64,000 nucleotides of DNA from Mucilaginibacter defluvii. Lineage in GTDB: Bacteria > Bacteroidota > Bacteroidia > Sphingobacteriales > Sphingobacteriaceae. Location of the stretch: the NCBI RefSeq assembly GCF_039543225.1, contig NZ_BAABJI010000001.1, forward strand, positions 151,193-215,192, written 5' to 3'. The notes beneath the pieces are model-generated. The model was not told the origin of the DNA. It ran no database searches and worked only from the letters and a program-made list of their open reading frames with translations. The translations under genes were made by a program, and so were the position numbers. Positions 22,720 through 26,777 of the stretch are shown one piece after another (within the stretch, counting starts at the first letter, position 1; every line of letters begins with the position of its first letter).

Positions 22720-24165
22720 ATGAAAAGAATTCTCATCATTGATGATGAAGTGAATGTTGCCTTGTTGTTGTCAAAATTTCTAACACGAAATGGCTTTGAT
22801 GTGGTTACCGCTTCAAACGGGGCCAACGGCCTCGAGAGTTTAAAGAACGGAGAATTTAACCTCGTACTGTGCGATTACAGGTTAGACGATACCGACGGCC
22901 GCGAAATGCTCCGTCATATTAAAACCAACTACCCTAAAACCGGTGTAATTATAATAACCGGTTATTCTGATATAAAAATGGCTGTTGAGCTCATAAAAAT
23001 GGGCGCTTACGATTATATCACCAAGCCATTGTACCCTGATGAGATATTAAACACCATCAACAAGGCTATTGAAACGCAGTATGCGCTTGCTGAGGCTGAA
23101 GAGGAACAACTACCGGTTGCTGCGCCCGAAAAATCTGCAGCGCAAAAAAACGGTAAAAAACATTTAATGGGTGGCGAGTTTGTGGTGGGCACCAGCCGCG
23201 CTTCAAAAGAGCTTGCCCGGCAGATTGACCTGGTTGCCCCAACCGGTTACAGCGTTATTATATTGGGCGAAAGCGGTACCGGTAAAGAAGCCGTTGCCAA
23301 AAGCATACACGCGGCCAGCCCGAGGGCTAACAAACCGTTTATTGCCATGGATTGCGGCTCGCTTACTAAGGAGTTGGCCGCAAGTGAATTCTTCGGTCAC
23401 GAAAAAGGATCATTTACCGGGGCTTTGTATACCAAGATAGGTCACTTCGAGATGGCCAATGGCGGTACGCTGTTTTTGGATGAAGTGGGTAACCTCTCTT
23501 ATGATATACAGGCTGCCTTATTACGTACGGTGCAGGAACGTAAGGTAAAACGTATTGGCAGCACCAAAGAAATTGACCTGGATGTACGTATTATAGTAGC
23601 TACCAACGAAAACCTGCAGGAAGGCATTAACAAAGGCCGTTTCCGTGAGGATTTATACCATCGCTTTAACGAGTTTGCCATCTACATGCCGCCGCTGCGC
23701 GATCGCGGGCAGGATATTATAGCCCTCGCTGAGCATTTTTTGCATATGGCTAATGATGAGTTAGGGCGCAACGTTACCGCTTTCTCTGAGGAAGTGGTGG
23801 AATGTTTTATGAATTACCGCTGGCCCGGCAATATCCGCGAGCTGAAAAATATTGTACGCCGTGCTACCCTGCTTACCGAAGGTGGTGAGGTGCCGCTGAA
23901 GGCGCTGCCGCTGGAATTGTCCAATTATAAAATGCCTGTGCTCGATACCGTGCCTCTTGCAAACGGAGCAACACAGCAAACCCCTGCACCGGAAGTTAAA
24001 GAGGTTAAACATAACCTGAAAAATGCCGCACTTGAAGCGGAATACGAAACCATTTTGCGTGTACTGCGCGAAGTGAACTTTAATAAAACCCGCGCGGCCG
24101 AGATACTTAAGATTGACAGGAAGACGCTTTACAACAAAATGAAGGCGATTAACGCCGGTAAATAA
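22720..24165 (+). CDS. Sigma-54-dependent response regulator, NtrC type
   Basis: A 481-residue transcription activator. The receiver domain (1-120) has IIDDEVN, the phosphoacceptor Asp52 in LVLCDYRLDD and the conserved lysine in YITKPLYP. The AAA+ domain (about 150-385) carries Walker A GESGTGKEAVAKSIH, the sigma-54 contact loop as GSFTGAL (GAFTGA in most relatives) and FREDLYHRFNEF, RWPGNIRELKN. A Fis-type helix-turn-helix (about 440-480, NFNKTRAAEILKIDRKTLYNKM) ends it. It should activate RpoN promoters when phosphorylated. No full kinase is adjacent; the next gene, 2 bp downstream, is a DHp-like mini-protein. Confidence 0.95.
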   Translation: MKRILIIDDEVNVALLLSKFLTRNGFDVVTASNGANGLESLKNGEFNLVLCDYRLDDTDGREMLRHIKTNYPKTGVIIITGYSDIKMAVELIKMGAYDYITKPLYPDEILNTINKAIETQYALAEAEEEQLPVAAPEKSAAQKNGKKHLMGGEFVVGTSRASKELARQIDLVAPTGYSVIILGESGTGKEAVAKSIHAASPRANKPFIAMDCGSLTKELAASEFFGHEKGSFTGALYTKIGHFEMANGGTLFLDEVGNLSYDIQAALLRTVQERKVKRIGSTKEIDLDVRIIVATNENLQEGINKGRFREDLYHRFNEFAIYMPPLRDRGQDIIALAEHFLHMANDELGRNVTAFSEEVVECFMNYRWPGNIRELKNIVRRATLLTEGGEVPLKALPLELSNYKMPVLDTVPLANGATQQTPAPEVKEVKHNLKNAALEAEYETILRVLREVNFNKTRAAEILKIDRKTLYNKMKAINAGK

Positions 24166-24167
24166 CA

Positions 24168-24368
24168 ATGGCCGAAGGTACAGAACAGCCTGATGAAGCC
24201 CTGAGCTTGCTTAGGCACGATGTAAACAATCAACTCTCAAACATAAATCTCTGCCTTGAGCAATTGAAGTACGAGGTAACTGACCCTACCGAAGACTATC
24301 GTTTTTACCTTGAAGCGATAGCCATAAGCTGCAAAAAAATACAGGAGTTGATGGCCGTAAAGCAGTAA
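24168..24368 (+). CDS. Small DHp-like protein, lone histidine phosphotransfer candidate
   Basis: A 66-residue protein not known to me by name. It has the plan of a histidine-kinase dimerisation/phosphoacceptor hairpin. Helix 1 carries SLLRHDVNNQLSNINLCLEQ, with His17 in the H-box position and Asp18/Asn21 in the D/ExxN phosphatase pattern. A short TDPTED turn follows, then helix 2 YRFYLEAIAISCKKIQELM. No ATPase domain follows, so it cannot be a kinase alone. The ATG is 2 bp after the NtrC stop, so the two are almost certainly co-translated. It could act as a phosphotransfer protein or phosphatase for the regulator, or as a dimerising brake. The function is inferred only. Confidence 0.7.
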   Translation: MAEGTEQPDEALSLLRHDVNNQLSNINLCLEQLKYEVTDPTEDYRFYLEAIAISCKKIQELMAVKQ

Positions 24369-24447: not shown

Positions 24448-25491
24448 ATGTCCGTTTTTAGTTATAAGCAGCGTAACAATATCATATTGGTCAGCATTAT
24501 TGTGCTTGGCTGCTTTTTGTTATATGCTTTAAGCGGATTGTTCAGCTCCATACTGGGCGCGGTGGTACTTTATACCATATTTAGATCGACATACATTTAC
24601 CTGGTTGAAAAACGCGGACTCAACGGCCCTATTGTGGCGGTGGGCGTTATCGTGGTATCGCTTATTGTAATCGTTATACCTTTCCTGCTGCTCAGTTTTA
24701 TGGTGATCAATAAAATTGCTGAGCTTAGTTCTGATACACTGTTGCTGCAACGGTGGTTCAGGAAGATAGATGCTTTCACCGATGCCAATTTAAACAAGCC
24801 GAATTTCGCTGAAGAAGCGGTACAAAAATTAAGTAATTACGCCACTGAGCTGTTTCCGTCGCTTATAATCGTCCCTGCAAACATCATCATAACACTGCTG
24901 TTCATGTACTTCATTTTATATTTTATGTTTGTACAGATGCGAAGCTTTGAGGCTGGCCTTTTGCGATACGCGCCCGTGCGCGAGCAGCACGCTTTAAAAT
25001 TCGCGCAGGAGCTGCGCAACTCCACTTATTCCAACGTTTTGGGGCAGGGCATTATATCAATAGTGCAAGGTGTATTGCTGGCAAATGGTTTTTGGATATT
25101 TGGTATACCCGACCCGATTTTCTGGGGCGTTATAGGTACTTTTATCTCGTTTTTACCTGTTGTAGGTGCGCCGACCCTCACCATACCTGCCGGACTTTTA
25201 TTAATGGCCGACGGGCATGCCATAAAGGGTGTGGTGCTGATTGCGTACGGCGTGCTGTTTATCGGCAATGTTGATAACGTTTTGCGTATGGCCATCAACA
25301 AACGCATTGCCAATACGCATCCGCTGATATCGTTAGTAGGTGTGTTCATCGGTCTGCCCCTATTTGGTATTCTGGGTTTGGTATTTGGCCCTTTGCTGTT
25401 ATCGTATTTTCTGCTGCTGGTTGAAATTTACCAAACCAACCGTATGGCTGCCGAGCGCCTGGAGCGCATACGCACCGGGCCGGATCTTTAA
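24448..25491 (+). CDS. AI-2E family membrane transporter
   Basis: A 347-residue polytopic inner-membrane protein with about eight hydrophobic segments. It shows the family's arrangement of paired N-terminal helices (LVSIIVLGCFLLYALSGL onward), a longer soluble loop (about 90-140) and a C-terminal helix group with the conserved GIPDPIFWGVIGTFISFLP and GLPLFGILGLVFGPLL. Members include the AI-2 exporter TqsA and Na+/H+ antiporters, so the substrate cannot be assigned. It begins 79 bp after the DHp-like gene and could be part of the same transcript. Confidence 0.88.
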   Translation: MSVFSYKQRNNIILVSIIVLGCFLLYALSGLFSSILGAVVLYTIFRSTYIYLVEKRGLNGPIVAVGVIVVSLIVIVIPFLLLSFMVINKIAELSSDTLLLQRWFRKIDAFTDANLNKPNFAEEAVQKLSNYATELFPSLIIVPANIIITLLFMYFILYFMFVQMRSFEAGLLRYAPVREQHALKFAQELRNSTYSNVLGQGIISIVQGVLLANGFWIFGIPDPIFWGVIGTFISFLPVVGAPTLTIPAGLLLMADGHAIKGVVLIAYGVLFIGNVDNVLRMAINKRIANTHPLISLVGVFIGLPLFGILGLVFGPLLLSYFLLLVEIYQTNRMAAERLERIRTGPDL

Positions 25492-25636
25492 ATTATTTTC
25501 AAGTGCTGTAAACTATATAGGGCAAAAAACGGTTAAATAATTACATATTTAGTCGTCAAAAATGATGTATTGCCTTATTGGCAAAGTATTTAATTAATTT
25601 TTAAAACAAAATAGTCAACTTGAAAATTTATAGGAT

Positions 25637-25903
25637 ATGAACGACAACACAAAAACAGTAGTTGCCTTGCTGGCAGGATTAGCGGCAGGCGCGGCATTAG
25701 GGTTATTATTTGCCCCTGATAAAGGCTCTGAAACCCGTGACAAACTCAGCGATTCATTAAAAAACCTTGGCGATTCAATTAAAGACACAGCTGCTGCCGA
25801 AATTGATAACCTGGTAGGTTTTAAAGACAGGGTTGTTCAAAATATCAAAACAAAAATTAAAGGTGCTGAAGAAGAGTACCAGGACGACCTGGAGCACGCA
25901 TAA
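25637..25903 (+). CDS. YtxH domain protein
   Basis: An 88-residue protein. A glycine/alanine-rich membrane helix near the N-terminus (VVALLAGLAAGAALGLLFAPDKG) is followed by a charged amphipathic helix (SETRDKLSDSLKNLGDSIKD), the hallmark of YtxH proteins. The family is linked to envelope and general stress in several phyla, but its biochemical role is unknown. A terminator separates it from the holin-like gene, yet spacing and theme suggest they work together. Confidence 0.85.
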   Translation: MNDNTKTVVALLAGLAAGAALGLLFAPDKGSETRDKLSDSLKNLGDSIKDTAAAEIDNLVGFKDRVVQNIKTKIKGAEEEYQDDLEHA

Positions 25904-25916
25904 ATACAAGTTTACC

Positions 25917-25940
25917 GGCCCCGTTTAGCGGGGCCTTTAA
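25917..25940 (+). terminator. Hairpin terminator after the YtxH gene
   Basis: Arms GGCCCCG and CGGGGCC with a TTTAG loop are followed by a short TTTAAAT tract. The weak T run suggests partial read-through. Confidence 0.6.
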
Positions 25941-25963
25941 ATACTACCTACTACCGCTAACCT

Positions 25964-26308
25964 ATGGAAGAAAAAAAAGATACTGCGACAGCCCAGCCGA
26001 TTATTGATCAGCTGAAGGAATATGCCGAAACCCGCTTTACCCTGGCCAAGTACAAGGCTATTGAAAAGGGAACGTCAATCATTGCCAGCATTATAATTGA
26101 TCTGATTGTTGTTGTAATCGCAGCAGTAACCTTCTTATTCGCGAGTTTTACACTGGCATTATTCCTGGCGGACGTATTTGCTTCCTACTGGAAAGGCTTT
26201 GGTGCCGTGGCGGGTTTCTATCTGATTATAGTCATCATCATTCTGGCAGCAAAGGGTAGCTTTGAAAAGCCGATAATTAATGGTTTCATCAAAAAAATCT
26301 TCAAATAA
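25964..26308 (+). CDS. Holin superfamily III-like membrane protein (DUF1469 type)
   Basis: A 114-residue protein with a soluble N-terminal helix (IIDQLKEYAETRFTLAKYKAIEKG) and two strong membrane segments (SIIIDLIVVVIAAVTFLFAS and AGFYLIIVIIILAAK). This is the layout of the phage holin family/DUF1469 proteins that are common on Bacteroidota chromosomes. No other phage gene is near, so it is probably a cellular membrane protein rather than a lysis protein. It lies between the YtxH gene and an overlapping gene of unknown function. Confidence 0.8.
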   Translation: MEEKKDTATAQPIIDQLKEYAETRFTLAKYKAIEKGTSIIASIIIDLIVVVIAAVTFLFASFTLALFLADVFASYWKGFGAVAGFYLIIVIIILAAKGSFEKPIINGFIKKIFK

Positions 26309-26777
26309 AGCAATGGCTGGCATTCCAATTAAAAATATCGACGACTTGAGAAGTGAAATTGCAAGGCTTACAATTGCTGAAGATGTTCAATCATCGGCAT
26401 TAAAACTGCGCTTTAGCAGCCCTTCTGCTTTATTTGCTACCGCGCTGTCCATCTTCCCGAAATCAGCAACGCTTGACGGTGTTAAGGGGGCGGGTTTTTT
26501 TAAGCAGGATTTTTTAGGCCTTATCTCACGTTTCCTGTTACCGTTAACGCTTAACAAAACCCTGTTTAAAAGCTCAAACTTTTTGGTTAAGGCACTGGTA
26601 AGCGTTATCTCGCAAAAGGCATCAACCTATATCAGCGAAGATTCTGTTACAGGTGTTTGGGGTAAAGTGAAAGGCTTGTTCAATAACATCGTTAAAAAGA
26701 AGCAGCCTGGAGTTGTTGCCGAAACGGTTGTTGTACCGCCAAACCCTACAGCCCCGCCATATACCGAAACTTACTAA
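26280..26777 (+). CDS. Unknown protein linked to the YtxH/holin-like genes
   Basis: A protein of 165 residues if read from the ATG at 26280, which overlaps the holin-like gene by 29 bp, or 154 from the ATG at 26313. The second start (MAGIPIKNIDDLRSEI) lies 4 bp after the upstream stop and looks more natural. I recognise no family. The sequence has a hydrophobic middle (FLGLISRFLLPLTLNKTLF, LVKALVSVIS) and a Pro-rich end. Together with its neighbours it suggests a small envelope-stress module. It ends about 70 bp before trmB. Confidence 0.7.
   Translation: MVSSKKSSNKAMAGIPIKNIDDLRSEIARLTIAEDVQSSALKLRFSSPSALFATALSIFPKSATLDGVKGAGFFKQDFLGLISRFLLPLTLNKTLFKSSNFLVKALVSVISQKASTYISEDSVTGVWGKVKGLFNNIVKKKQPGVVAETVVVPPNPTAPPYTETY

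Follow-up and report, generated by a model that had tools for sequence, protein, structure and literature searches.

A stand-alone DHp mini-protein encoded downstream of an NtrC-type regulator gene in Mucilaginibacter, a remnant of a full histidine kinase

Background

Spo0B, the phosphotransferase of Bacillus sporulation, uses a kinase-derived DHp hairpin to serve response regulators without consuming ATP. It carries an extra C-terminal domain (its chains in the PDB are 182-196 aa long) and acts in a known relay from Spo0F to Spo0A. The alphaproteobacterial phosphotransferases ChpT and PhyT are former kinases that have kept the DHp domain and lost kinase activity. Both retain a degenerate ATPase-like domain, PhyT has a membrane anchor as well (PMC3433190, PMC5898713), and the PhyT gene lies beside that of its regulator.

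The isolated DHp domains obtained from EnvZ and HK853 in the laboratory are artificial truncations of about 60-70 residues, comprising a HisKA hairpin with the phospho-acceptor His and a T or N four residues after it (H+4). Such fragments are active phosphatases in vitro. EnvZ acts as a phosphatase when its catalytic domain is removed, according to Zhu et al. 2000, as cited in PMC5727384, and the isolated HK853 DHp domain dephosphorylates its regulator, an activity that is diminished by the H260A substitution (PMC5727384). In split kinases such as CheA3/CheA4, the phospho-acceptor and the ATPase are found on separate polypeptides, and CheA3 in its free form acts as the main phosphatase (PMC3591291).

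The HisKA kinases NtrB and CrdS are partners of the NtrC-type sigma-54 activators NtrC and CrdA, and have the HExxN phosphatase residue. In CrdS, the Asn at H+4 is needed exclusively for phosphatase activity, for which the His is not required but which it enhances. The acidic residue at H+1 is needed only for kinase activity, and changing the Pro at H+5 to Ala strongly reduces phosphatase but not kinase activity (PMC3510030). HisKA proteins without an HATPase domain constitute 3.66% of the HisKA proteins in SMART, so an ATPase-less HisKA class exists in databases (PMC3591291). In the literature searched, no description of DHp-only proteins or of a DHp-only partner of NtrC was found. Thus, the preliminary description of this DNA, which knew of no described system with such an arrangement, holds for a DHp-only partner of NtrC, but Spo0B, ChpT, PhyT and the split kinases are known relatives in a wider sense.

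The window analyzed here is a stretch of 64,000 nucleotides from Mucilaginibacter defluvii. The features that concern us are as follows.

22720-24165, plus strand: NtrC-type response regulator gene (ntrC), the presumed partner, with REC, sigma-54 AAA+ and Fis-type HTH domains by Pfam
22873-22875, plus strand: Asp52 of NtrC, the predicted phosphorylation site, conserved in 94/94 orthologues
24168-24368, plus strand: gene for a stand-alone DHp (HisKA) mini-protein, 66 aa plus stop
24216-24230, plus strand: H-box core H17-D18-V19-N20-N21 of the mini-protein, with the phospho-acceptor His, the acidic residue at H+1 and the Asn at H+4
24448-25491, plus strand: AI-2E family transporter gene, the right-hand border of the conserved slot; this is context and lies outside the proposed mechanism

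By analogy, the mini-protein resembles a natural EnvZ or HK853 DHp fragment, or a minimal Spo0B. Its H-box (RHDVNNQL) is comparable to that of Spo0B (RHDWMNKL; PDB 1F51), and neither has a Pro at H+5. However, the mini-protein consists of the DHp domain only: it lacks the C-terminal domain of the Spo0B/ChpT/PhyT architecture, and both the ATPase-like domain and the membrane anchor are gone. The EnvZ and HK853 fragments were made artificially, whereas the mini-protein is a natural free-standing product maintained across a genus. It appears to be nature's counterpart of the EnvZ/HK853 domain dissection: a kinase has been cut down to the DHp hairpin, and what is left is conserved throughout Mucilaginibacter. 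In contrast to CheA3/CheA4, which have a CheA-class P1 domain and for which the ATPase partner is known, the mini-protein belongs to the HisKA type. NtrB and CrdS are full kinases with an ATPase, whereas kinase activity in cis is impossible for the mini-protein.

Results and discussion

The mini-protein gene and its conservation

The mini-protein gene begins 2 bp past the ntrC stop codon (24163-24165), and its position, spacing and 66-residue length are as the preliminary description gave them. No HATPase or other CA domain occurs in cis in the 66 aa or follows them, because the next ORF is that of the transporter. The gene is found in 143/150 Mucilaginibacter genomes, far beyond chance expectation, and in 116 of the 118 high-quality ones. 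It is always a short open frame and is essentially single-copy. Six of the seven genomes without it also have no ntrC match (five of these six are 58-83% complete), and in the seventh, ntrC is truncated, apparently by the end of a contig.

The coupling to ntrC that was first noticed in a single genome is general. In two overlapping sets of loci, ntrC always lies directly upstream: in 88/88 aligned loci, with a gap of -11 to +7 bp, and in 80/80 named loci, with a gap of -11 to +18 bp. Of the 80 named loci, 77 have the AI-2E transporter gene on the downstream side. In window positions 24448-26777, the order of genes beside ntrC (AI-2E transporter, YtxH-like, holin-like, small protein, trmB) is strongly conserved family-wide. 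A scan of the window for sigma-54 promoters gave fewer matches than expected by chance.

Among the 88 aligned mini-proteins, H17, D/E18 and N21 are each present in 88, so the H/DxxN pattern that drew attention to this frame is retained throughout. L23 is also invariant. The residue that follows the H-box core, at H+5, is Gln22 (Gln in 86/88), where related full kinases have Pro. The per-column conservation of these loci is far higher in helix 1 than in helix 2. Values of dN/dS, calculated for close pairs with estimable dS, are 0.013-0.31, far below 1. The ORF is a real gene under strong purifying selection. None of the conditions that the preliminary description named as refuting its reading (a variable His17, a fold unlike a DHp hairpin, an untranslated ORF) was borne out. 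A pseudogene or a chance ORF is rejected on the strength of the genus-wide conservation and dN/dS.

Domain identity and fold

The Pfam HisKA profile (PF00512) matches 65 of 76 members of the mini-protein family, with a best E-value of 2.4e-8. The window copy alone falls below the threshold (E 8.5e-4; 19.8 bits versus a cut-off of 26.9). A scan of the whole genome with the same profile did not list the mini-protein, which the first-pass filter had probably discarded, and routine annotation may miss DHp-only genes.

A single-chain AlphaFold2 model predicts a confident hairpin with helices at residues 8-36 and 42-63 (mean pLDDT 89.8). The best PDB matches of this model by Foldseek are mostly DHp domains of kinases, with weak E-values (0.18 and above). 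They include the P248A variant of the EnvZ DHp domain (5b1o), and the top match is the RetS/GacS DHp co-complex (E 0.18). On a second structural alignment, unrelated helical hairpins match equally well (Z 7-8), so the fold supports a DHp assignment without being decisive alone. A profile search of PDB sequences gave nothing convincing. An Hpt or other helical fold was also considered; the sequence profile and the structural matches to DHp domains favor HisKA instead. Profile, predicted fold and motif together place the mini-protein in the HisKA domain family, which bears out its initial recognition as a DHp domain. A protein without an ATPase cannot phosphorylate itself, and the mini-protein, having none, is not a histidine kinase.

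Origin from a full kinase

Related genera have full kinases in the slot bounded by ntrC on one side and by the AI-2E/YtxH/holin/trmB genes on the other. Numbering genera of the family so that g1 is Mucilaginibacter and g3 is one sister genus, the slot holds two kinases, HK1 and HK2, in g15, g10, g7, part of g11, and g8. HK2 has the architecture REC-PAS-HisKA-HATPase. A 927-aa MASE3-PAS-HisKA-HATPase kinase is present in g5, a REC-PAS-DHp protein without an ATPase in g2 and g20, and a 259-aa HK2-like REC-PAS fragment with no DHp match in g17. The slot is empty in g18 and in another g11 species. Only in g1 and g3 does the slot hold a DHp domain alone.

The pattern N-x-L-[ST]-N-[IV]-x-L-A-L-E-Q-L below the His is common to the mini-protein and the full kinases found at this locus, and DHp similarity shows descent from the HK2 lineage. 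The mini-protein is a reduced remnant of a full histidine kinase. The preliminary description missed this reduction, which is visible in synteny, as well as the different course of degeneration of the same kinase in sister lineages.

In a tree of NtrC proteins, the DHp-only loci cluster together with moderate support (86/76), which makes a single reduction likely, although not certain. The reduction to a stand-alone DHp domain appears to have happened once, in an ancestor shared by Mucilaginibacter and g3. Outside these two genera, 396 genomes at class level and 392 at phylum level gave matches in longer frames, almost all of more than 220 aa, and none of them looked like a stand-alone DHp domain. 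The genome of the window has 66 HATPase_c matches, none of them linked to the mini-protein locus. No recognizable orthologue of the ancestral kinases HK1 and HK2 was found in this genome or in the other g1 and g3 genomes tested. Relocation of these kinases within Mucilaginibacter was considered and rejected, because the best matches are merely generic kinases (21-43% identical). Tested genomes that have no HK1 at the locus also have no close HK1 relative elsewhere.

The sister clade has altered HK2 differently. Its phospho-acceptor His is replaced in 19/19 genomes read, by Asn in all 12 g15 genomes and by Asp, Glu or Leu elsewhere; the Asn at H+4 is retained in 15/19. Most His-less HK2 proteins retain the HATPase domain; in g2, g20 and one g15 genome (L097), the protein stops after the DHp domain. 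More distant relatives across the class retain HE[VI][RK]N. Autokinase activity was thus dispensable in this clade, and the phosphatase residue was mostly kept. Mucilaginibacter shows the reverse loss, in which the ATPase is gone and the His is retained, so self-phosphorylation has been abolished in both branches by different routes. A division of labor, in which HK1 (SHDLQEPL, with Glu at H+4) would be only a kinase and HK2 only a phosphatase, is weakened by DrBphP, in which a Glu at H+4 supports phosphatase activity (PMC8292422).

One syntenic slot beside one conserved regulator has several endpoints of decay: a full kinase, a His-less kinase, an ATPase-less receiver-PAS-DHp protein, a DHp domain alone, or nothing. 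The slot makes it possible to test which kinase activity selection retains during the degeneration of a two-component pair, and what the minimum size is for a functional phosphatase or phosphotransferase of a response regulator.

Possible functions

The preliminary description suggested phosphotransfer, phosphatase activity or a role as dimer partner; these are not separable here, and the evidence somewhat favors the phosphatase. We tentatively propose, at a probability just short of even, that the mini-protein is a dedicated phosphatase acting on Asp52 of NtrC. It would be co-produced with NtrC through the tightly coupled gene order, and a mini-protein dimer, docked via its helix 1 on the receiver domain of NtrC, would strip the phosphate from Asp52. 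Asn21 (H+4) would position the attacking water, with assistance from His17. NtrC itself would be charged by a kinase encoded elsewhere or by some other phosphate donor, and the mini-protein would set the threshold and reset the NtrC switch. The gene and its conservation, its DHp identity and kinase ancestry, its pairing with ntrC and the lack of recognizable ancestral-kinase orthologues in the genomes tested are observed; that the protein dimerizes, docks on NtrC and removes phosphate supplied from outside is what we infer here.

The invariant Asn at H+4, the activity of isolated DHp fragments, the conservation of helix 1, as expected for a receiver-docking face, and the phosphorylation-related residues of NtrC favor the phosphatase. 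The last of these (Asp52, Thr80 and Lys102) are kept in 94/94 orthologues, which suggests that NtrC is still regulated by phosphorylation. Also counted in favor are the invariant acidic residue at H+1 (88/88), the stretch below the His common to the full kinases of the locus, the lack of an ATPase partner at the locus and of any ancestral-kinase orthologue, the sister-clade pattern, and the co-occurrence of the mini-protein with ntrC. Against the phosphatase, His17 is invariant although the sister pseudokinases do without their His, which points to a His-dependent step. In addition, Gln occupies H+5, where Pro-to-Ala lowers the phosphatase activity of CrdS, and the H-box, RHDxxN[Q/K]L, is Spo0B-like. 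PhyP/PhyT is a warning that such proteins can be misread: this kinase with a degenerate ATPase domain, encoded beside its regulator, was first taken for a phosphatase but proved to be a phosphotransferase and binding inhibitor (PMC5898713).

The same observations make phosphotransfer a real, if doubtful, candidate. His17 might take phosphate from the receiver of an unlinked (hybrid) kinase or from an ATPase in trans, and pass it to NtrC Asp52, much as Spo0B, ChpT or PhyT do, pared down to the DHp hairpin. The His and acidic H+1 residue are invariant in 88/88, while the His is lost in the sister pseudokinases, and the acidic residue is needed only for kinase activity in CrdS (PMC3510030). The H-box without Pro at H+5, the PhyT precedent (PMC5898713) and the 66 HATPase_c matches of the genome, which could feed the mini-protein, also fit. 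However, neither a linked donor kinase nor an intermediate receiver is present, the ancestral kinases of the locus are gone, and by the CrdS data, pure transfer would not need the Asn at H+4, which is also invariant. It is rather unlikely, but conceivable, that the 66 residues form a relay in which kinases elsewhere charge the His and the phosphate passes to NtrC, a free adaptor that opens one regulator to many kinases. If so, a DHp domain stripped of sensor and ATPase became an adaptor, and sister lineages made a His-less, ATPase-bearing pseudokinase from the same kinase.

Perhaps the hairpin merely occupies the NtrC receiver and blocks phosphorylation or dimerization without chemistry, as PhyT inhibits PhyR through complex formation (PMC5898713). 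Tight gene coupling would supply matched amounts, but an invariant His, acidic H+1 residue and Asn are not expected of a pure clamp, and we regard this explanation as improbable. Mixed four-helix bundles with the DHp domain of another kinase, which would be titrated or redirected in the manner of RetS on GacS, seem very improbable. The RetS/GacS co-complex is the top structural match, and one partner kinase could provide ATP in trans; however, that match reflects the DHp fold, and the gene is linked to ntrC and not to a kinase in every aligned and named locus. The thought of a decaying, non-functional pseudogene, which draws on the mini-protein being a clear leftover of a larger kinase and on the total loss of the kinase in other genera (loci L195 and L196), retains almost no probability, as it is contradicted by dN/dS of about 0.01-0.3, a single copy in 143/150 genomes and active-site residues invariant genus-wide.

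Additional observations

In two genera, receiver-PAS-DHp proteins directly behind ntrC (L098:2915-3916 and L192:6456-7397) have neither an ATPase nor the phospho-acceptor His; these are possibly independent intermediates of kinase decay. The 727-aa HK1 of g8 (L197:5699-7882) stops inside its ATPase domain and is perhaps another decayed kinase. The 927-aa kinase of g5 (L088, L089, L090) looks chimeric: the N-terminal MASE3/PAS portion is similar to the HK1 of g8 (38% over about 550 aa), and the PAS-HisKA-HATPase portion to HK2. A conserved pseudokinase with Asn in place of the His occurs beside an active-looking HK1 in g15 (L094, L095, L326-L334). In NtrC, GSFTGA replaces the usual GAFTGA in 93 of the 94 orthologues.
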